DNA of 41,181 nucleotides, taken from a virus. Below the pieces are notes generated by a model that was not told where the DNA came from, ran no database searches, and was given only the letters and a program-made list of their open reading frames with translations. Each line of letters opens with the position of its first letter. The first letter of the stretch is position 1. Positions 1 through 41,132 of this stretch are shown here, one piece after another. The stretch is taken from positions 1 to 41,181 of the IMG/VR virus record IMGVR_UViG_3300031276_000008. One strand, given 5' to 3'. Both the position numbers and the translations under genes were made by a program.

Positions 1-105
1 GATAGACCAACTTGTGAAAGTGGGAAAATATACAAAGTAGAGGGGAACGAACAAAGAGCCTTAAATACCTTAGACGATATATTTGATAAACATCACGGAT
101 GGTAG
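1..105 (+). pseudogene. 3' fragment of a small gene, duplicate of the gene at 40294-40488
   Basis: The window opens in frame inside an ORF whose 34 remaining residues, ending DIFDKHHGW, are identical to the C-terminus of the 64-aa protein encoded on the minus strand at 40294-40488. The DNA identity is exact over 1-122. The fragment has no start here, so it is either cut by the window edge or a true partial duplicate. The family is not recognised; the full-length copy is basic and coiled-coil-like. It matters mainly as one arm of a long inverted repeat. Confidence 0.8.
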
Positions 106-122
106 CAAAAATTCCAAATAAC
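1..122 (+). repeat. Left arm of a 122-bp perfect inverted repeat
   Basis: Positions 1-122 are the exact reverse complement of 40277-40398. After a 434-bp interruption the identity resumes for 10 bp (557-566 against 40267-40276). The repeat begins at the first base of the window, so its outer limit is unknown. It could be a real duplicated locus, a terminal inverted repeat, or an assembly junction between two arrangements of the same locus. Confidence 0.95.
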
Positions 123-245
123 GGCGTGAAATTTAACAAGCCGTTGTAAGGTGATAACTACAAATGTTCTTAAACACTTTAATAAAACGATTTACTAATA
201 AATGCTCCGTTGCATAACTAAGGGCTTGTTGAAATTTTTGTTATG
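118..245. other. attC-like recombination site (candidate)
   Basis: The two sides pair as ATAAC/GTTAT (118-122 with about 239-243), an unpaired spacer, AAATTT/AAATTT, a single extrahelical G on the 3' strand, then AACAAGCC/GGCTTGTT. This is the R box, spacer, L box with extrahelical base arrangement known from integron attC sites, and the total of about 125 bp is like Vibrio VCRs. The R boxes match the RYYYAAC/GTTRRRY consensus only loosely. No integron integrase is visible in the window. Confidence 0.45.
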
Positions 246-556
246 TGGTTGGGCGTGGGAGTAAAAAATGAACGGAATGCCATTAGTAAAATTAGAATTA
301 GACCAAATGAGAGTAACTATTATGCACCAATTCACAAATTACAATAAAGAAATAAGTGAAGCGGTAGATAAAGAGTTGAAGAAAGTTATTGAAAATTTTG
401 ATTATGAGGGCACGATAACAAAGATTGCTGATGAAGTAATCACAAAAGCAATAGAAAATTATTTTGCTTGGGGAGGGGAAGGCAAAAAGCTAATAGAGGG
501 CAGCGTAACACAAGCATTAGATAAAATATTCAAAGCTAACGCCCAATCCACATAAC
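123..556 (+). mobile_element. Cassette-like insertion bounded by ATAAC repeats
   Basis: Compared with the right-hand copy of the same locus (40267-40398), this 434-bp segment interrupts otherwise identical sequence exactly after ATAAC (118-122) and ends with a second ATAAC (552-556), after which ATATGATTAA resumes as in the right copy. It holds one ORF (268-555) and an attC-like fold at one side. Read on the minus strand, the segment runs from G/TTATGTGG to GCCG/TTAT with the attC-like site at its 3' end, which is the layout of an integron gene cassette; in that reading its ORF is antisense. A transposon with a 5-bp target duplication is the alternative, but no transposase is present. Confidence 0.55.
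268..555 (+). CDS. Hypothetical protein, 95 aa, carried on the cassette-like segment
   Basis: The start is supported by GGGAG about 6 nt upstream. The protein is predicted mainly alpha-helical, with an acidic/basic amphipathic stretch (ISEAVDKELKKVIENFDYEG) and no membrane segment. The family is not recognised. The stop codon TAA lies inside the terminal ATAAC boundary, as is usual for integron cassette ORFs. A 16-17-bp inverted repeat flanks the ORF: GTTATGTGGTTGGGCG upstream and its near complement overlapping the 3' end. Confidence 0.65.
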   Translation: MNGMPLVKLELDQMRVTIMHQFTNYNKEISEAVDKELKKVIENFDYEGTITKIADEVITKAIENYFAWGGEGKKLIEGSVTQALDKIFKANAQST

Positions 557-631
557 ATATGATTAACCCGAAACGGCTGTAAGTTATTGTTTTTCAATAT
601 CTTATTTTTATTACAAGTTTATATGATATGT

Positions 632-22729: not shown

Positions 22730-24925
22730 TTACTTTCCTCCATTATTATTTATTTTAATCTTTGCAGCCTTCTCTTCGCCTGCTAATCTTCCCATCATTC
22801 CTTTTACTTCGCCTTCTACTTTTCCCTTTAATCCACCCATATCAACTTGAAATTTAGATTTCTCTATCATTCTATCCGCGGTTTTAAGTTCTCTCTCTGC
22901 GGTCTGGGCATCACCTTCTAATTTCTTAATGTGCTCGCCCATCTGCTGAATTTGCTGTTGCATTTGTGCCATTGCGTCTTGTTTCTCGATTATCAATTCT
23001 ACATCATCTATTTCCATAGCTCTTAAAATTGGCTCTCTTACTGTCAGGATTTGTCTATCCCATGCTTCCATGAGAATATCAAGTTTACCCCAGCGTAAAA
23101 CTTCTTTCATACTGCCAGATACCATTTGGATATTATATCTAGTATCATAAGTATCATTAAAAATCTTCCCGTCTTCATCAACTCCATTAATAACCGCTTC
23201 TCTTTTCTTACCATGCTCCCCGGAAATCTTAAATGCTTTTCTTTCTGTATAGTATTCAGGAAGCATTTGGGAAACTACGTTACCTAACTCGTTAAGCATT
23301 GCTTCAATGTCTTTCCGGGTAGCTTCGGCTCTACGCATACGCATTTCATCTTGTGCTAATAAACCACCTTTAGTCGGGTGTGCCCCCTCTGGGCTGCCGT
23401 CGCTTGCTTCATAACTTCCCAGAACTCTTTGTATGTCGTACTTCAAATTTTTTATATATCTGAATAATTCATTAGCCAACTGTTGAGGATATAGTATAAT
23501 CGGTTGTGCTCCTGGTAATTCAAAATCAACCTCAACTACCTCACATGATGGAGAGCTCATTTTCTTTTTGATATCTTCGAGGTCATGTGCTCCCTTACCG
23601 ATAATAACCGTTACATTCGTGCTCCGTGAAGTGTGTTTGACTAACATGGACTGGAAGAATATTAACTGTTTGATATAGTCTTTTACTTTTCTGATATTGG
23701 AAGTAGGATATGGATTCCCAAGATGATTTAACATCATAGTCACTATTGGCTGTGTATCAAGTTTACCCATGATCTTATTCTGGACTTCACGCCCCGCAAC
23801 CGAAAGAACTCTTTTAATTCTTATAGCTTTATATTTGATCCACTTAATCGCCCCTTCTTCTAAAAGCTGTCCGCATGTAGTTACCCTCAACTCATAAGTG
23901 CTGTTTTCTACCGAACCATCTTTTGTCGGAAGTTCTTCTAACCCCGGAGCCATTTCCATTTCTTTATTTTGGTTTAGAATATAATGGTACACTTCCCCAA
24001 ACTGTTCTATAATCTGCATCTGTTGGTTTACTTCATCTTCCTGAGTTATGTATCTTGTAGAATTAGTAGTCGTTTCAATTACCGCAGGTCTTTGTTTGAA
24101 TTCTTCGTATTCTTTTTCGGTAAAATTGTATTCTTGTTTTGAGTAAGGATCCCACACATTAAGCATCGGGATTAAAATCTTTGAATATCTATCAAGCACT
24201 TCGTATTTTTTATGGAATGTGTCTGCAATCCCAAAAGCTGTCTCTTGTGAACTATAATTAGAACCAGTAGGTTTATCGTCAGTCGCTTCACGTGCGTCCT
24301 TCAAATCTACTTCAGGGTATTGATCTTGTATCATTTCACCGGTCATTACCACACGAATGATTTTATGAACGGCATCCAAAGTAAGTGGGTCTGAGGAACT
24401 TGGGCTTATGTACAAATCAGTAGGATCAATTTCTTTTATAAATATTTCACCCCTTCCATTATCGGCATAAGGGTCATAATATGGCATCATTGCCATCATA
24501 CCCTTAACTTCTCCATCTCTCACGGCGGTTTTAAGTCTTATATTACCATGGGATATATCCCAAATGTAAGCCATCAAATCAGCTACAAAACTCGCATCAT
24601 TCGTATCATCATTCTCTCTGCCAGTAGCAGTCCATTTAGGTTGTTTACTTGTGAGTGCGGCAACTAATTGATCCACACAAGCAGTCGCTTCATAATCGGA
24701 AAGTGGTAGAAATTCATCAGATTTTATAGAGTTAGCTTCTTCTTTAGTAAATTGTGCGCCTGCATATAAACGGACATCCTCAGCCATTCTTAAACCATAG
24801 GCATCTCTCTCACCGGATTTAAGTTGTTCAAATATCCTCTCACTTTGAACTGTGTCCTTAGTGTAACCTTCCGGCACTTTCTCGTCTATTTCAGGGTCAT
24901 ACCCTTTTTCTAAATCATAAGCCAT
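22730..24925 (-). CDS. Portal protein, 731 aa
   Basis: The length matches P22-type portals. The start is MAYDLEKGYDPEI with AGGGG about 10 nt upstream; an ATG at 24958 inside the terminase gene would add 11 residues. Visible are the clip/stem-like helical region (LANELFRYIKNLKYDIQRVL) and a long C-terminal coiled coil (MAQMQQQIQQMGEHIKKLEG) as in barrel-bearing portals. It lies directly after the large terminase. It forms the DNA entry channel and connector docking ring. Confidence 0.8.
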   Translation of the reverse strand: MAYDLEKGYDPEIDEKVPEGYTKDTVQSERIFEQLKSGERDAYGLRMAEDVRLYAGAQFTKEEANSIKSDEFLPLSDYEATACVDQLVAALTSKQPKWTATGRENDDTNDASFVADLMAYIWDISHGNIRLKTAVRDGEVKGMMAMMPYYDPYADNGRGEIFIKEIDPTDLYISPSSSDPLTLDAVHKIIRVVMTGEMIQDQYPEVDLKDAREATDDKPTGSNYSSQETAFGIADTFHKKYEVLDRYSKILIPMLNVWDPYSKQEYNFTEKEYEEFKQRPAVIETTTNSTRYITQEDEVNQQMQIIEQFGEVYHYILNQNKEMEMAPGLEELPTKDGSVENSTYELRVTTCGQLLEEGAIKWIKYKAIRIKRVLSVAGREVQNKIMGKLDTQPIVTMMLNHLGNPYPTSNIRKVKDYIKQLIFFQSMLVKHTSRSTNVTVIIGKGAHDLEDIKKKMSSPSCEVVEVDFELPGAQPIILYPQQLANELFRYIKNLKYDIQRVLGSYEASDGSPEGAHPTKGGLLAQDEMRMRRAEATRKDIEAMLNELGNVVSQMLPEYYTERKAFKISGEHGKKREAVINGVDEDGKIFNDTYDTRYNIQMVSGSMKEVLRWGKLDILMEAWDRQILTVREPILRAMEIDDVELIIEKQDAMAQMQQQIQQMGEHIKKLEGDAQTAERELKTADRMIEKSKFQVDMGGLKGKVEGEVKGMMGRLAGEEKAAKIKINNNGGK

Positions 24926-24927
24926 GT

Positions 24928-26484
24928 TTATGCCACCCCTATGTGTTCGAGAACCCAATCTTTAGGTTGTTCTCTTCTTACAAAAATCTCATTCTTTTTC
25001 TTAATTACGACAGTATGGTTCGGTGGATAAAGTCTTTTTGTTGCGTAATCAAATGCGTCTAAAGTGTCATCTTTCTTTCCTCTTGGGAATGATAAAAGTT
25101 CATCTATAAATGCTACATTATCTCTGTGAATCCAAACCTGTCTGCGATAAAAATAAGGATGCAGTCTCAGGAGTCTATCATTTTTTTTAGTCCTCGGTTT
25201 AAATCCATCTTCTTGTCCAAACCCCGGGACGTAACAATCTTCTCTCACCATTCTTTTCCGCACATCCTCTCTTACCCATTCTTGGAAAGCGGTTGTCTCA
25301 ACCCCACCTCTACGAGGTCGTACTTCTTTTATCTTATCTATGATACCATCAGTAACTTCTGTGGGTGCCCCTCTTTTCCTAAAATAAGGCATACTCCATA
25401 ATTCTTCGCTTTTATCATACCCAACTGGATGTGCTACTGTGAAATCTGCTGTTTGGCTTGTACTGGCAGCGGGATCAATCCCCAAGAATGTATTAACAGG
25501 AATTATTTCTTCTTTTTCTAGTTTCTCCCAATCGCCGAAATAATCTAATTTTTTATGAGTTACGTGTAAATAAACTAAATATTGCCCTTGTTCTTTTTTA
25601 ACTTCGTGATAACCATCCCAAAACTTCATGTATTTTTTCTTGAAAGTTTGTTCTTCATCACCAATGATTTTACATTCATACTCAGAAGCGAATATACTTG
25701 GTGTCCCGGCTAATTCGTATGATTCTTCTCTTAATTTAAGTTTTTCATGTGGCCATAATTCAGGCCATAAGACTATTCCATTTTCTTTATCTATCCAACA
25801 ACTATATTCTTTAGATGTCCATTCCGGCATAGTTTGTACTCTTATCACCATACAGAGTTCATTTTGTGGTGTCCCGATTATAAAGATTCTGCCCATATCT
25901 GCATCAACACCAGGCATGATTCCTTTTAATAGAATTGAGAAATTTGTGTCCATTGCTTCTTTTGTCTTAGTATTATTTGTATCTTCGGGATCATCTAATA
26001 CCACAAAAGTAGGTCTTTGGTGTCCTCTTTTTAGTCCGATAATCTGTTGGCCTGTTCCTTTGCAAATTATAGCAGAACCATCTTTTAGGATAATTTCATC
26101 TTCTGTCCATTTCCTCGCTGTTTCTTTGCCCCAATTTCCAAATAACTCTCTAAATTCGTTCCCATAATTCAACAAATCCTTAATCGCCTGCAATCTGTCT
26201 TTAGCATGACCTTGTGTTTTAGAGATTATTACTATTACTTTTTGTCCGGGATCGAACATTAGATGGTGTACAGGTGCTGCTTCTGCAAGAAGTGAACTTT
26301 TTGCGTGATGTCGTGGGGCTATTATATTAACTAGTTTTTCATTTTTATCGTGATACAACTCAGCTAATTCATAATGGAAATCAGGGGAACGTTTATTAAA
26401 GGTTTTGGGCATAACTGTTTTACCAAAAAGAATTAAGTTCTTTCTAAGTTCTAACCTTATTTCGTTTCTCCTCTCCTCGGTCAT
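24928..26484 (-). CDS. terL: Terminase large subunit, 518 aa
   Basis: This is the packaging motor ATPase and headful nuclease. Walker A-type PRHHAKSS is at about residues 57-64, Walker B TFVVLDDPED at about 159-168, and the coupling motif IGTPQ near 203. The nuclease domain begins at FLGIDPAAS (Asp about 337) with GVETTAF (Glu about 396) and KKDDTLDAFDYA (Asp about 472-476). All catalytic acidic residues are present. It overlaps the upstream zinc-ribbon gene by 4 nt and is followed by the portal. Confidence 0.92.
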   Translation of the reverse strand: MTEERRNEIRLELRKNLILFGKTVMPKTFNKRSPDFHYELAELYHDKNEKLVNIIAPRHHAKSSLLAEAAPVHHLMFDPGQKVIVIISKTQGHAKDRLQAIKDLLNYGNEFRELFGNWGKETARKWTEDEIILKDGSAIICKGTGQQIIGLKRGHQRPTFVVLDDPEDTNNTKTKEAMDTNFSILLKGIMPGVDADMGRIFIIGTPQNELCMVIRVQTMPEWTSKEYSCWIDKENGIVLWPELWPHEKLKLREESYELAGTPSIFASEYECKIIGDEEQTFKKKYMKFWDGYHEVKKEQGQYLVYLHVTHKKLDYFGDWEKLEKEEIIPVNTFLGIDPAASTSQTADFTVAHPVGYDKSEELWSMPYFRKRGAPTEVTDGIIDKIKEVRPRRGGVETTAFQEWVREDVRKRMVREDCYVPGFGQEDGFKPRTKKNDRLLRLHPYFYRRQVWIHRDNVAFIDELLSFPRGKKDDTLDAFDYATKRLYPPNHTVVIKKKNEIFVRREQPKDWVLEHIGVA

Positions 26485-32940: not shown

Positions 32941-33036
32941 ATGGAACGGATTATTAGAATTATACCGGCACTTGCCATGTTAACAGCGCAAATATGTTTA
33001 CTTATTTATATAATTATTTTATTAATTCAAAATTGA
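32941..33036 (+). CDS. Small membrane peptide, 31 aa
   Basis: ATG at 32941 follows CGGAG with 5-nt spacing. The peptide is almost entirely one transmembrane segment (ALAMLTAQICLLIYIIILL). Its stop is 8 nt before the next start. Such peptides often alter the host membrane or act as lysis or exclusion factors; no family is recognised. Confidence 0.4.
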   Translation: MERIIRIIPALAMLTAQICLLIYIIILLIQN

Positions 33037-33044
33037 GGTATGAA

Positions 33045-33440
33045 ATGAAACTCACAAACAAAAACTTAGAAGCATTAAAAGGTAACAATTCACTAAAAGA
33101 TTATTGTCTTGACTACCTTTTAGATATACCCGGAGAAGAAAGAGATACGCTTATTCAGGATTTATTGTCTTATGGATGCATTTCGGGTATGGTTTCCGGT
33201 TTAATTTATTATCCCGAAACAATTAAATTTGCCGATGAATACCAAGATGAAATATGGGACTTGGCAAGCGAGCAAATGGCATCACTTGGAGAAACAAACA
33301 ACATTCTACAATTTTTCGCTAGTCTCAACGGTTCAAAAGATGTAGGGAGTATGGAACAATTCAAAAATCTTTTAGCCTGGTATGGCTTTGAAGAAATGAC
33401 CCGTATTATTTACGAGCAAGATTTACAAAACGAATTATGA
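33045..33440 (+). CDS. Hypothetical protein, 131 aa
   Basis: The start MKLTNKNLEALKGNNSLKDY is chosen because GAGG lies 8 nt upstream and an earlier ATG (32994) belongs to the membrane peptide's region. The acidic, helical protein contains LQDLLSYGCISGMVSGLIYY and ends YEQDLQNEL. Soluble; function unknown. It is the second gene of the + strand early cluster. Confidence 0.6.
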   Translation: MKLTNKNLEALKGNNSLKDYCLDYLLDIPGEERDTLIQDLLSYGCISGMVSGLIYYPETIKFADEYQDEIWDLASEQMASLGETNNILQFFASLNGSKDVGSMEQFKNLLAWYGFEEMTRIIYEQDLQNEL

Positions 33441-33482
33441 CAATATCATATTTTAGAATTAAAAACAGATAGAAGGTGCAAA

Positions 33483-33722
33483 ATGACAAAAGTTAAGTTT
33501 TTAATCGGAAAGGACGGGGAAGTCTTGGCATATTTCCCCTTTGAGGATTACTCTTTCCCTTTGTACGGGCATTCAATGAAAACGTGCTACCAACATATCG
33601 GGCAACATTCTTCTTGCTCGCCTCAGTACGTTAGAGGACTAAAGAGAGCTGATCCGTTCAAATATATGCCATTGCTCAAAGAGTTACAGAGCCAGGGTTA
33701 TGATAAGTTACACGTTTTATAA
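33483..33722 (+). CDS. Conserved-looking small phage protein, 79 aa
   Basis: Features are VKFLIGKDGEVLAYFP followed by YQHIGQHSSCSPQYVRGLKR and LKELQSQGYDKLHVL. A short domain with the HIGQHSSCSP motif recurs in small proteins of phages and plasmids, with no function known to me. GAAGGTGC precedes the start. A conserved His/Ser/Cys patch hints at a binding site. Confidence 0.6.
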   Translation: MTKVKFLIGKDGEVLAYFPFEDYSFPLYGHSMKTCYQHIGQHSSCSPQYVRGLKRADPFKYMPLLKELQSQGYDKLHVL

Positions 33723-33736
33723 ACTAGGAGTAAGCA

Positions 33737-33931
33737 ATGTTAAAAATACAATCTAAGAAATATTTTCACTACGCACACAAAAAAGGCGGGCTTAGATTCA
33801 ACATCCCCGCCGAAACCGAAGCACGCGCCCAACTTTGGATCAAAGAACTGGGCTTCCATCATACAGAGTTTGAGTTTCTCGGAATTTCCGAAAACGAGAA
33901 AGAGTATGATTTTTATTCACAAAAAAACTAA
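33737..33931 (+). CDS. Hypothetical protein, 64 aa
   Basis: AGGAGTAAGC precedes the start. The protein has aromatic and basic N-terminal sequence (MLKIQSKKYFHYAHKKGGLR) and an acidic C-terminus. Its size and the KELGFHHTEFEFLG segment resemble the next protein (ELKCLGFIMTL), suggesting the two are distant paralogues. Confidence 0.55.
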   Translation: MLKIQSKKYFHYAHKKGGLRFNIPAETEARAQLWIKELGFHHTEFEFLGISENEKEYDFYSQKN

Positions 33932-33958
33932 AAGACTAATTAACTAAGGAGTAATGAA

Positions 33959-34168
33959 ATGAAACATCACAAAATAAAGATAATAAGAGACCGTGCGAAC
34001 GGATTACATTATTGGGCAGTGCATACCAAAGATTTCATTATTGAATCGAAAAAGAACTATGTTAAAGCTCATACTTGCGAATTAAAATGTCTTGGATTTA
34101 TCATGACACTGGACAAACTAGATACATTTCAGATATTTACATCCGACATAGAGTATATAAATTCATAA
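33959..34168 (+). CDS. Hypothetical protein, 69 aa
   Basis: AAGGAGTAATGAA precedes the start at ideal spacing. The basic, beta-rich protein begins MKHHKIKIIRDRANGLHYWA. It is flanked by similar small genes with identical ribosome sites, so the cluster is likely co-transcribed and strongly expressed. Function unknown. Confidence 0.55.
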   Translation: MKHHKIKIIRDRANGLHYWAVHTKDFIIESKKNYVKAHTCELKCLGFIMTLDKLDTFQIFTSDIEYINS

Positions 34169-34184
34169 ACTAAGGAGTAATACC

Positions 34185-34373
34185 ATGTTTAACGTATTTG
34201 TTTCAGAAAAAGCAAGAGACGGGCGAAAAGGGTTTGTTTGTCTCTTCCGTGTTGATCTTCTAAAGATAGAAGAGATTAGAAAAGAATACCCGAAGGAAAT
34301 TTTTGATGTTCATTCGGAGAACACCTATACTACCGACATCCGCATAATTAGAAACAAAGGTCTGCTTTACTAA
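34185..34373 (+). CDS. Hypothetical protein, 62 aa
   Basis: AAGGAGTAATACC precedes the ATG. The protein is mixed alpha/beta (GFVCLFRVDLLKIEEIRKEY). It is the last gene of the + strand early cluster, ending 4 nt before an intrinsic terminator. No family is recognised. Confidence 0.55.
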   Translation: MFNVFVSEKARDGRKGFVCLFRVDLLKIEEIRKEYPKEIFDVHSENTYTTDIRIIRNKGLLY

Positions 34374-37549: not shown

Positions 37550-38022
37550 TGCTTCCTCCAAAGTTGTAAGTTATATTTTTCTTGATATTCTTTCAATACA
37601 AATCTTGGTTTACTTAGCCCCGTATTTATAGCCACATAGTCATGCATATCTACAAGTCTTTCATGTACTAATTTTGTTAGTTCTCTATATTCGTAAACTT
37701 TGACCTTTTTATCGAACAGAATGAAGTTTGCTATGTTTGGGAGCTTGTCCCATCCTTCATAGGTATCCCTTACATGGTTAACAGCATCTTTCATTCTTTC
37801 ATCCGTGAATCCGTTATCAGCAAAAGCATTTTTAAGCTCCTCAATCATAGGCTCCGGGAATTTAGGAAATATATTAAATATCCTTTTTGCCTGTTCAACC
37901 AAAACAAATTTTGTCAGTTTACCCTTATAAACAGAAATCTCACTTGTATCTGTCGTCTTTAAGGATTGACTCTGAGAATTTTCTGAGTCCCAATTCTGTA
38001 ATGACTGGCTTAGATGTTCCAT
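37546..38022 (-). CDS. Replication-associated protein, 158 aa (helicase-loader-like position)
   Basis: The N-terminus is disordered and Ser/Gln-rich; the rest is helical with FPEPMIEELKNAFADNGFTD and YEGWDKLPNIANFILFDKKV. The latter resembles segments of small replication co-factors that follow DnaD-like initiators in phages. It overlaps the upstream initiator-like gene by 83 nt. A loader role is inferred from position. Confidence 0.5.
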   Translation of the reverse strand: MEHLSQSLQNWDSENSQSQSLKTTDTSEISVYKGKLTKFVLVEQAKRIFNIFPKFPEPMIEELKNAFADNGFTDERMKDAVNHVRDTYEGWDKLPNIANFILFDKKVKVYEYRELTKLVHERLVDMHDYVAINTGLSKPRFVLKEYQEKYNLQLWRKQ

Positions 38023-38665
38023 TTTTACCTTCTATTATTTCGTCATTCCAAGATTTATTATTAAGATATGCTTCGGGGTTCTTTCTGTATTGCTTATCAG
38101 GTGTTGCTTTTTTATAAAGTTCAACATGAGAAAGAATTTTTATCTTTGTTTCTTCTTTAAGTTTATCCCATTTCTTTTCTAACTTATCCTTTTTACCGAC
38201 CTTCTTTTCATAAGCATTCCAAAAAATATCAAAGCTAATTTTATCATTATCTTTTTCTTTATCTTTTTCTTTATCTTTTTCTTTATCTTTTTCTTTATCC
38301 CTTTGTATAGTCTTTGTATAGTCTATCCATAGACTATGTTTTTTAAGGAGAGAAATATAAGATTGATGTGGTTTATTAGTAACTTTACTTTCGTCTAAGC
38401 ATCCATATTGGAAATAACAAAAGTTTTTTATCCACCATTTTTTATTATTAAATACCTTAATCCTATCTCCAAGATGTTCTAAAATTTCATCTTGGTTTAA
38501 TTCACATCCAATCACAAAAGAAGCGAGTTCAATATCTTCTTCCCAGACCCCTACTGGGTCACAATTCATAAACAAATAAATCCAGAATAGTTTTACTTCA
38601 ATAGGTAGTTTTCTAAACCATTTATTGTTTGTGAATATAGTAGTTTCCAAAAATCGTTTAGCCAT
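37940..38665 (-). CDS. DnaD-like replication initiator, 241 aa
   Basis: The start is MAKRFLETTIFTNNKWFRKL, with AGGA upstream. The N-terminal winged-helix-like domain (KLPIEVKLFWIYLFMNCDPV and GVWEEDIELASFVIG) matches phage replisome organisers. A repeat linker (KEKD repeated four times) joins it to a C-terminal helical domain (FDIFWNAYEKKVGKKDKLEK) with a YLNNKSWNDE end typical of such proteins. Would bind the origin and recruit the host helicase. Confidence 0.7.
   Translation of the reverse strand: MAKRFLETTIFTNNKWFRKLPIEVKLFWIYLFMNCDPVGVWEEDIELASFVIGCELNQDEILEHLGDRIKVFNNKKWWIKNFCYFQYGCLDESKVTNKPHQSYISLLKKHSLWIDYTKTIQRDKEKDKEKDKEKDKEKDNDKISFDIFWNAYEKKVGKKDKLEKKWDKLKEETKIKILSHVELYKKATPDKQYRKNPEAYLNNKSWNDEIIEGKNGTSKPVITELGLRKFSESILKDDRYK
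38247..38299 (-). repeat. 12-bp tandem repeat encoding KEKD
   Basis: About four copies of the unit CTTTTTCTTTAT lie inside the initiator gene and encode the charged linker KEKD. The unit is a multiple of three, so copy-number changes lengthen the linker without frameshift. Confidence 0.8.
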
Positions 38666-38710
38666 TATTATCCTGTTTTGCAATTTTGTAAAATTATAAA
38701 CAAAAAAATA

Positions 38711-39178: not shown

Positions 39179-39841
39179 TCATTGTTTGTCTCGTGAGTTT
39201 GGTTCAAGAACTTTGAACCCAATTACCCATACCCACGGGTTAACGTCCCACCCGTAACCACGTTTTCCATTTATTGAGTTCCAAAGATTTTTGAATCTGT
39301 TTATACCATAATTCTTTTCTACAAATTGAGTGCTATAAATAAAACCGCCGTCATGACAAGCATCATCTTCCGTTATATCATTCAGCCGTTCAACTCGTAT
39401 ATTTATAACCTCTAAAAGTATTCGAGAAAATTCTCTATACATGAATATCGACGGTTTCCATTTCGGGAATATTGATGGATCTTCTTCTGTTGCACGATAA
39501 TAGATTGGTGTTTCGTTACAACCAATGGTATCAAATGCACCTGGGATATTATCACACCACCACGTTTCCTTAACCCATAATCTGTCACCCGGTTTACCGA
39601 ACGGACATTGTATTACCAGAAAGCCTTCATCAAGATATTCAGCGCATGCTATTTTAATTCCATCATCCCCGGACATTTGATATAAATCTTCTGTCTCTCC
39701 AGGTTCACCATCACATCTACCTGATAAAAATTCTATAGCATCCAAAGATTTCCCCTTCACAACTCTCCGAGTTTGTGTTTTTCTTCCTTCGAGAATAGCC
39801 TGTATCATTTCACCGCTGAATAAAATCGGATGTTCTTTCAT
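39179..39841 (-). CDS. ASCH-domain-like protein, 220 aa
   Basis: MKEHPILFSGEMIQAILEGR with KTQTRRVV, then CPFGKPGDRLWVKETWW (about 80-95) and a C-terminal GYGWDVNPWVWVIGFKVL, are the hallmarks of a common phage/prophage ASCH-like (PUA-related) family. ASCH folds bind RNA, and bacterial relatives hydrolyse acetylated cytidine or act on nucleosides. GGAG is 7 nt upstream. It is preceded by a compact pseudoknot-forming RNA (39870-39930). Confidence 0.7.
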   Translation of the reverse strand: MKEHPILFSGEMIQAILEGRKTQTRRVVKGKSLDAIEFLSGRCDGEPGETEDLYQMSGDDGIKIACAEYLDEGFLVIQCPFGKPGDRLWVKETWWCDNIPGAFDTIGCNETPIYYRATEEDPSIFPKWKPSIFMYREFSRILLEVINIRVERLNDITEDDACHDGGFIYSTQFVEKNYGINRFKNLWNSINGKRGYGWDVNPWVWVIGFKVLEPNSRDKQ

Positions 39842-40215: not shown

Positions 40216-40266
40216 AACTTATTTATATAAAAATACTTGTGAACATTTCATAAGAATTTTGTCGGC

Positions 40267-40398
40267 TTAATCATATGTTATTTGGAATTTTTGCTACCAT
40301 CCGTGATGTTTATCAAATATATCGTCTAAGGTATTTAAGGCTCTTTGTTCGTTCCCCTCTACTTTGTATATTTTCCCACTTTCACAAGTTGGTCTATC
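40267..40398 (-). repeat. Right arm of the inverted repeat (uninterrupted copy)
   Basis: This copy is identical in reverse complement to 1-122 plus 557-566, with no insertion at ATAAC/ATATGATTAA. It shows the empty-site form of the cassette-like insertion seen at the left end and includes the 3' half of the 64-aa gene. Confidence 0.9.
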
Positions 40399-40488
40399 AA
40401 CAGTTTTCCAAATTTCAAATTGTTCTCTCAATTTCGTTAATGATTTTTTACTACGCCTTTCTTGTAATTTCCTTTTGATAATGTTCAT
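40294..40488 (-). CDS. Hypothetical basic protein, 64 aa (full copy of the left-end fragment)
   Basis: The N-terminal part is very basic (MNIIKRKLQERRSKKSLTKL), then an amphipathic helix and a C-terminal ALNTLDDIFDKHHGW. AGGAG about 9 nt upstream supports the start. Its 3' 105 bp are repeated at the window start. Function unknown. Confidence 0.6.
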   Translation of the reverse strand: MNIIKRKLQERRSKKSLTKLREQFEIWKTVDRPTCESGKIYKVEGNEQRALNTLDDIFDKHHGW

Positions 40489-40552
40489 TTTTCTAATCTC
40501 CTATGTTTTATCGCAAAAATCACCGCTGAGAAACGCTCAAATAACCAGTCAT

Positions 40553-40711
40553 TCAAGAGGAATGGTTATTGTTATCGGCTAAATTTTTATATTTTTCGTC
40601 CAACTTCCTTTTCTTTTTTCTTAGGTTTATATAATTCTGAGAATGTTTCTTTTTTGTTTTTATAAGTTTTATCTCAATATCTTTCCCATTACATATAAAT
40701 ATTCTTTTCAT
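40553..40711 (-). CDS. Small very basic protein, 52 aa
   Basis: The ORF begins MKRIFICNGKDIEIKLIKTK and continues Lys/Arg-rich (NLRKKKRKLDEKYKNLADNN). GGTGG and GAGG lie upstream. The gap before it starts with TAACGGCGTTGG at the previous gene's stop. Nucleic-acid binding is plausible from charge only. Confidence 0.5.
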   Translation of the reverse strand: MKRIFICNGKDIEIKLIKTKKKHSQNYINLRKKKRKLDEKYKNLADNNNHSS

Positions 40712-40739
40712 TTCCACCATCCTCTTAATTCCAACGCCG

Positions 40740-41132
40740 TTATACCGTAAAATTGCTAAGTTTTTCTTTGAGTTCTTGAAACTTTATGAATATAGACTGT
40801 ATTTCTTCTCCCTTTGCAATATTAGCCGTGTTTTTGTCAAGAGAAGCATACCCGCCATATTTTTGCCTCAAATAATCTTCAAATTTGTCCAATTCTTCCG
40901 CAATTTTCGGCATAACAATTCGCTCAGCCGGTAAACTTTCAAATATTATTACTTTTGCATCTGAATATTCATTTATACAGTTGTTACCGTATCCATTCAT
41001 TGCATTTATTACTTTATATTCATCATCAATTAAATCTATCATTACCATTAGGCTACCGTAAAAATCAACATTAAACGGGGTGTCAATTGATTCAATATCT
41101 TTAATGTTTTCATTCACCTTTATTGCATACAT
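40740..41132 (-). CDS. Hypothetical protein, 130 aa
   Basis: AAAAGGAGG precedes the start. The protein begins MYAIKVNENIKDIESIDTPF, then a hydrophobic/acidic beta part (DFYGSLMVMIDLIDDEYKVI) and a helical C-terminal half. Its stop TAA begins a TAACGGCGTT element. No domain is recognised. Confidence 0.6.
   Translation of the reverse strand: MYAIKVNENIKDIESIDTPFNVDFYGSLMVMIDLIDDEYKVINAMNGYGNNCINEYSDAKVIIFESLPAERIVMPKIAEELDKFEDYLRQKYGGYASLDKNTANIAKGEEIQSIFIKFQELKEKLSNFTV

Follow-up and report, generated by a model that had tools for sequence, protein, structure and literature searches.

The contig ends of an uncultivated bacteriophage, IMG/VR virus record IMGVR_UViG_3300031276_000008, are predicted to carry two or three small integron-type cassettes. 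The window analysed here spans the whole record of 41,181 bp, and its position 1 is a contig end. With a probability of roughly 0.78 both ends belong to a cluster of attC sites without an integrase (CALIN), in which the cassettes B, A and a truncated cassette C are bounded by the integron exchange point G|TT. Furthermore, cassette A lies beside two different neighbours in the assembly, suggesting movement of cassettes within the phage population.

Based on the genes encoding the large subunit of the terminase (24928-26484) and the portal protein (22730-24958) the contig represents a tailed phage. The relatives found are all distant; the terminase shares 29% identity with one IMG/VR contig and less than 25% with the best listed named phages. 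A 220-aa protein (39179-39841) of the widespread PHROG 874 (unknown function) is about 40% identical in phages of Yersinia, Burkholderia and Pseudomonas, while the other phage proteins mostly remained without a match. The replication-initiation-like gene at 37940-38683 contains 12-bp tandem repeats (TTTATCTTTTTC; 38227-38300). An island of five successive plus-strand ORFs with ATG starts (32994-34373), the first of which has the domain DUF7222, is embedded among minus-strand genes. Searches of the window against Rfam and for tRNAs returned nothing.

Cassettes, attC sites and cassette genes

The predicted elements of the cassette region are compiled in Table 1. One clear attC site (attC_B) and one probable site (attC_A) are situated at opposite contig ends across the gap, and in both of them inverted R boxes with AAC/GTT cores were found.

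Table 1. Predicted features of the cassette region at the ends of the phage contig.
Feature	Positions	Strand	Remarks
Contig-end stretch	1..122	-	identical to the reverse complement of 40277-40398; cassette A start joined to attC_B
attC_B	116..246	-	R' ACATAAC 246-240; L' 236-223, extra base 231; L'' 142-130; R'' GTTATTT 122-116
Cassette B, 434 bp	122..555	-	G|TT (minus strand) at both ends
ORF_B, 95 aa	268..555	+	antisense to attC_B; Shine-Dalgarno-like GGGAG upstream
S1, half-site TCGGGTTAATCATATG	556..571	-	outer side of cassette B
S2, half-site TCGGCTTAATCATATG	40262..40277	+	outer side of cassette A; faces S1 across contig ends
Cassette A, 462 bp	40278..40739	+	start TTATTTGG pairs with own R' box TCAAATAAC
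ORF_A, 64 aa	40294..40488	-	antisense to cassette A; Shine-Dalgarno-like AGGAG
attC_A, probable	40539..40745	+	R' AAATAAC, L' ATT-C-AAGAGGA, R'' GTTATAC
Cassette C, cut by contig end	40740..41181	+	end stops at GCCG|TTA
ORF_C, 130 aa	40740..41132	-	antisense; Shine-Dalgarno-like AGGAGG

On the minus strand attC_B reads ACATAAC-AAA-AATTT-C-AACAAGCC ... GGCTTGTT-AAATT-TCACGCC-GTTATTT. Its arms form 13 pairs in a stem of 5 and 8 bp with one surplus C in the left arm, which corresponds to a G left unpaired on the opposite, bottom strand (position 231, plus strand). Characterised attC sites are 57-142 nt long, the strand is selected by a G that only one side of their inverted L boxes carries, and the unpaired base is almost always a bottom-strand G; exchange takes place between the C and the A of the bottom-strand box (PMC2727003). 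The length of attC_B (131 nt) lies inside this range, and the exchange point G|TT, which separates the C from the A in the R box, fits the predicted site, while the R-box consensus RYYYAAC/GTTRRRY is matched partly (GTTATGT, GTTATTT). In a scan for the attC architecture, which is specific rather than exhaustive and misses some published sites, attC_B reached a score of 13 (242..120, minus strand) against 0.03 expected per shuffled window, and the control of 927 kb of other sequence contained one match of at least 12. The partner arm of attC_B also outperformed all shuffles (300/300). The site as a whole folds only moderately better than shuffled sequences (z -1.6 and -2.0), which counts against the cassette reading.

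The second site, attC_A, is a probable but atypical attC site with 10 pairs plus an extra base. Its length of 207 nt is outside the range of characterised sites, and a 55-aa ORF (40553-40720, minus strand) sits between its arms. The scan score of 10 is by itself at chance level, and whole-site folding provided no support. When the right end was fixed at the motif CGCCGTTAT, however, the best partner arm was found to adjoin the AAATAAC box (P=0.003).

All three cassette genes are oriented against attC. This reversed orientation is given independently by the side of the unpaired G and by the position of the break. The stop codon TAA of ORF_B and of ORF_C coincides with the first three bases of the respective cassette (core-site TTA). 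Since a reversed gene in every cassette is unusual for integrons, this finding counts against the integron-cassette reading. On the other side, the start of cassette B (GTTATGTGG and TTGGGCG) and that of cassette A (GTTATTTG) pair with their own R' boxes, as is expected if each cassette was once a circle with one attC.

No meaningful relatives of the cassette genes were detected, neither for ORF_B and ORF_A in viral contigs nor for ORF_C in phages nor for ORF_B in phages, plasmids and seven bacterial genomes. ORF_B showed a Csm6-like signal (Pfam E=0.04, PADLOC E=0.001), which was too weak to be used, as was a match to PHROG 2600, a group of unknown function (E=1.5e-4). The plus-strand ORF beside S1 (632-829), for which a weak ribbon-helix-helix match was obtained (Pfam E=0.001), may represent a fourth cassette or a phage regulator.

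The sequence-only reading had already described a 434-bp segment with one small ORF between two copies of ATAAC, which is indeed present, the ORF being ORF_B. Its assignment to the integron type is supported by features beyond those it had listed, namely the R' and R'' boxes, an L'/L'' stem whose single additional base has the right identity and lies on the right side, the pairing of cassette starts with their own R' boxes, the other attC-like site near the right end of the contig and the G|TT boundary. The boundaries it had given to the base agree with the exchange point in so far as G|TT places a cassette of 434 bp at 122-555, but the right flank is shared over 15 of 16 bases and then diverges. 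A location beside the phage early region is plausible with the replication-initiation-like gene nearby. The unit reads on the minus strand, and its gene is antisense to attC.

End repeat and half-sites

Positions 1-122 are identical to the reverse complement of 40277-40398 (122/122), base 123 being the first to diverge, and 557-566 exactly match the reverse complement of 40267-40276. The gapless identity between the two loci is thus present as had been claimed. Its interpretation as the filled and the empty site of one locus is not supported, since the left copy is probably an overlap in the contig graph and the sequences on the outer sides are not the same. The initial reading of a genuine second copy was dropped after the comparison of contig-end overlaps. 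Eighty microvirus contigs of the same IMG/VR collection served as the yardstick: their circular end repeats include clusters at 99, 121, 123 and 127 nt, and among the overlaps between a contig end and the contig's own interior the values 98 and 126 nt, one less, recur. The length of 122 nt itself is absent from these values, and k=123 is inferred for the record. Because the repeat starts at base 1 and 122 nt fits k-1 for k=123, the left copy probably represents an assembly-graph overlap and not an independently assembled second locus.

Both joins of cassette A to a predecessor, S2 in one case and attC_B in the other, fall exactly at G|TT. The graph overlap alters the meaning of the repeat but leaves the finding in place: the graph forks at a cassette junction, which gives the cassette A start two predecessors in the reads. 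The S1 and S2 sites are different places that share a half-site while their outer flanks diverge. S1 and S2 have the half-site TCGGSTTAATCATATG in common, with 15 of 16 identical bases up to the G of GTT, beyond which the flanks differ. Pairing all GTTA sites of the window gave this pair the highest identity among 85,491 combinations. Neither of them passed as a complete attC site, which counts against the cassette reading, and a search of other viral contigs for the common half-site found no match.

The right contig end (41150-41181) stops at AGCCG|TTA and resembles the right ends of attC sites (CGCCGTTAT). Like S1 and S2, it failed as a complete attC site. The GCCG|TTA end may be another variable cassette junction.

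The sequence-only reading had also asked for variable contents at this site in other genomes. No such genome was found with ORF_A, ORF_B, the half-site and the attC arms in viral contigs, nor with the attC arms in bacterial genomes, records very near to the window being possibly absent from the material searched; this counts against the cassette reading. Patterns of the attC arms gave only chance matches in bacterial genomes and viral contigs, with no significant partner arm.

Proposed mechanism and alternative explanations

The contig does not contain a complete integron with an intI gene and an attI site, S1 and S2 being at best attI-like. As no match to a tyrosine recombinase (PF00589) was detected in the contig, the integrase is probably supplied by the host. 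In the proposed scenario the contig ends would lie in a small CALIN of the tailed phage, and a tyrosine recombinase of the IntI type, encoded by the infected host or in the unread gap, would bind the folded bottom strand of attC. Phage replication would expose single-stranded DNA and presumably favour this folding. Exchange would then take place at G|TT with the half-sites S1 and S2 or with another attC, so that cassette contents would differ between phage genomes, the graph would fork where cassette A begins, and the contig would be cut there, leaving the 122-bp overlap at its end. The sequence itself shows the attC anatomy, the boundaries, the two predecessors of cassette A and the gene orientation, whereas the enzyme and its source, a continued shuffling and an expression of the reversed genes would belong to the proposed scenario. 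A tentative extension, which we regard as rather unlikely, is a dedicated two-headed cassette dock, in which the facing sites S1 and S2 would each collect cassettes with genes reversed so as to be read by phage transcription, and in which the contents would turn over during infection via a host-supplied integrase.

The repeat begins at base 1 and has a length that fits an assembler overlap, as would also be expected if the left contig end were simply mis-joined or chimeric and no cassette had moved. Such a pure artefact seems distinctly unlikely, since a chimera would hardly break exactly at the G|TT of an attC site with intact stem, extra base and own-core pairing, and an overlap of k-1 implies that reads back both paths. 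The ATAAC at both ends of the 434-bp segment resembles the 5-bp target duplication of a transposon-like insertion, for instance a MITE. This explanation, rejected by inspection, is extremely improbable: the ends of the segment (GGCGTGAAATTT... / ...CCCAATCCACATAAC) show no terminal inverted repeats, the R box accounts for ATAAC, which is found again at cassette A, and the outer flanks do not make up a single empty site.

S1 and S2, as inverted copies of the 16-bp half-site (15/16) flanking the gap, could furthermore be the sites of a shufflon-like or invertible-segment system of the phage, acting on a GTTAT core with its recombinase encoded in the unsequenced gap. We consider this very unlikely, as the sites beside A and B differ apart from the core; in addition, an extra base that selects the strand within an attC stem is not known as a feature of shufflons. 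The remaining alternative retains the integron but assumes normal, gene-forward cassettes, the break after the gene arising because the opposite attC strand was used, as a rare event, or because the region was rearranged later. The near symmetry of the attC and the own-core pairing are compatible with either orientation. It seems unlikely nonetheless, because the reversed orientation is indicated independently by the position of the break and by the side on which the unpaired G lies, and in VCR this G by itself determines the strand (PMC2727003). Thus, cassettes with reversed genes in a CALIN of the phage are the reading preferred here.

Significance and comparison with known systems

In bacteria the integron system shuffles antibiotic-resistance genes. 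Phages are suspected carriers of integron cassettes, and the published cases considered here describe arrays in single reference genomes. If true, an assembly fork exactly at the attC exchange point would attest to a turnover of cassettes in a phage population in nature, and to a source of orphan phage genes that integron recombination spreads. A gene orientation opposite to attC would suggest a relaxed orientation rule where expression is provided by phage transcription.

Clusters of attC sites without an integrase have been published for 17 phages, and IntI1 was shown to recombine phage attC sites (Qi et al. 2023, PMC9892861). Among the examples are Tetrasphaera phage TJE1 and Pseudoalteromonas phage PH101 with co-directional genes and Polaribacter phage P12002L with divergent attC sites (PMC9892861). 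Our attC-architecture scan recovered a cluster of three sites in TJE1, in agreement with the published CALIN number (PMC9892861), and detected no convincing attC sites in P12002L. Like the phage CALINs (PMC9892861) the present region combines attC sites and small genes with the lack of an integrase in the record. It differs from them in the reversed genes of all three cassettes, in the two facing half-sites and in the assembly fork at the exchange point.

With VCR and the attC of aadA7 (PMC2727003) the predicted sites share R and L boxes, the unpaired bottom-strand G and a predicted exchange at G|TT, whereas their stem is AT-rich and attC_A is unusually long. As far as they are described in PMC12901181, which cites Loot et al. 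2024, attG-type and other secondary integron insertion sites receive cassettes without being attI or attC sites, and S1 and S2 could be of this kind; going by that description, S1 and S2 differ in being near-identical and in facing each other. Integrase-less attC clusters in phages are already known, and this phage is a further case. New are the apparent cassette shuffling at the fork, the pair of half-sites that face each other and the reversed orientation of the gene in each of the three cassettes.
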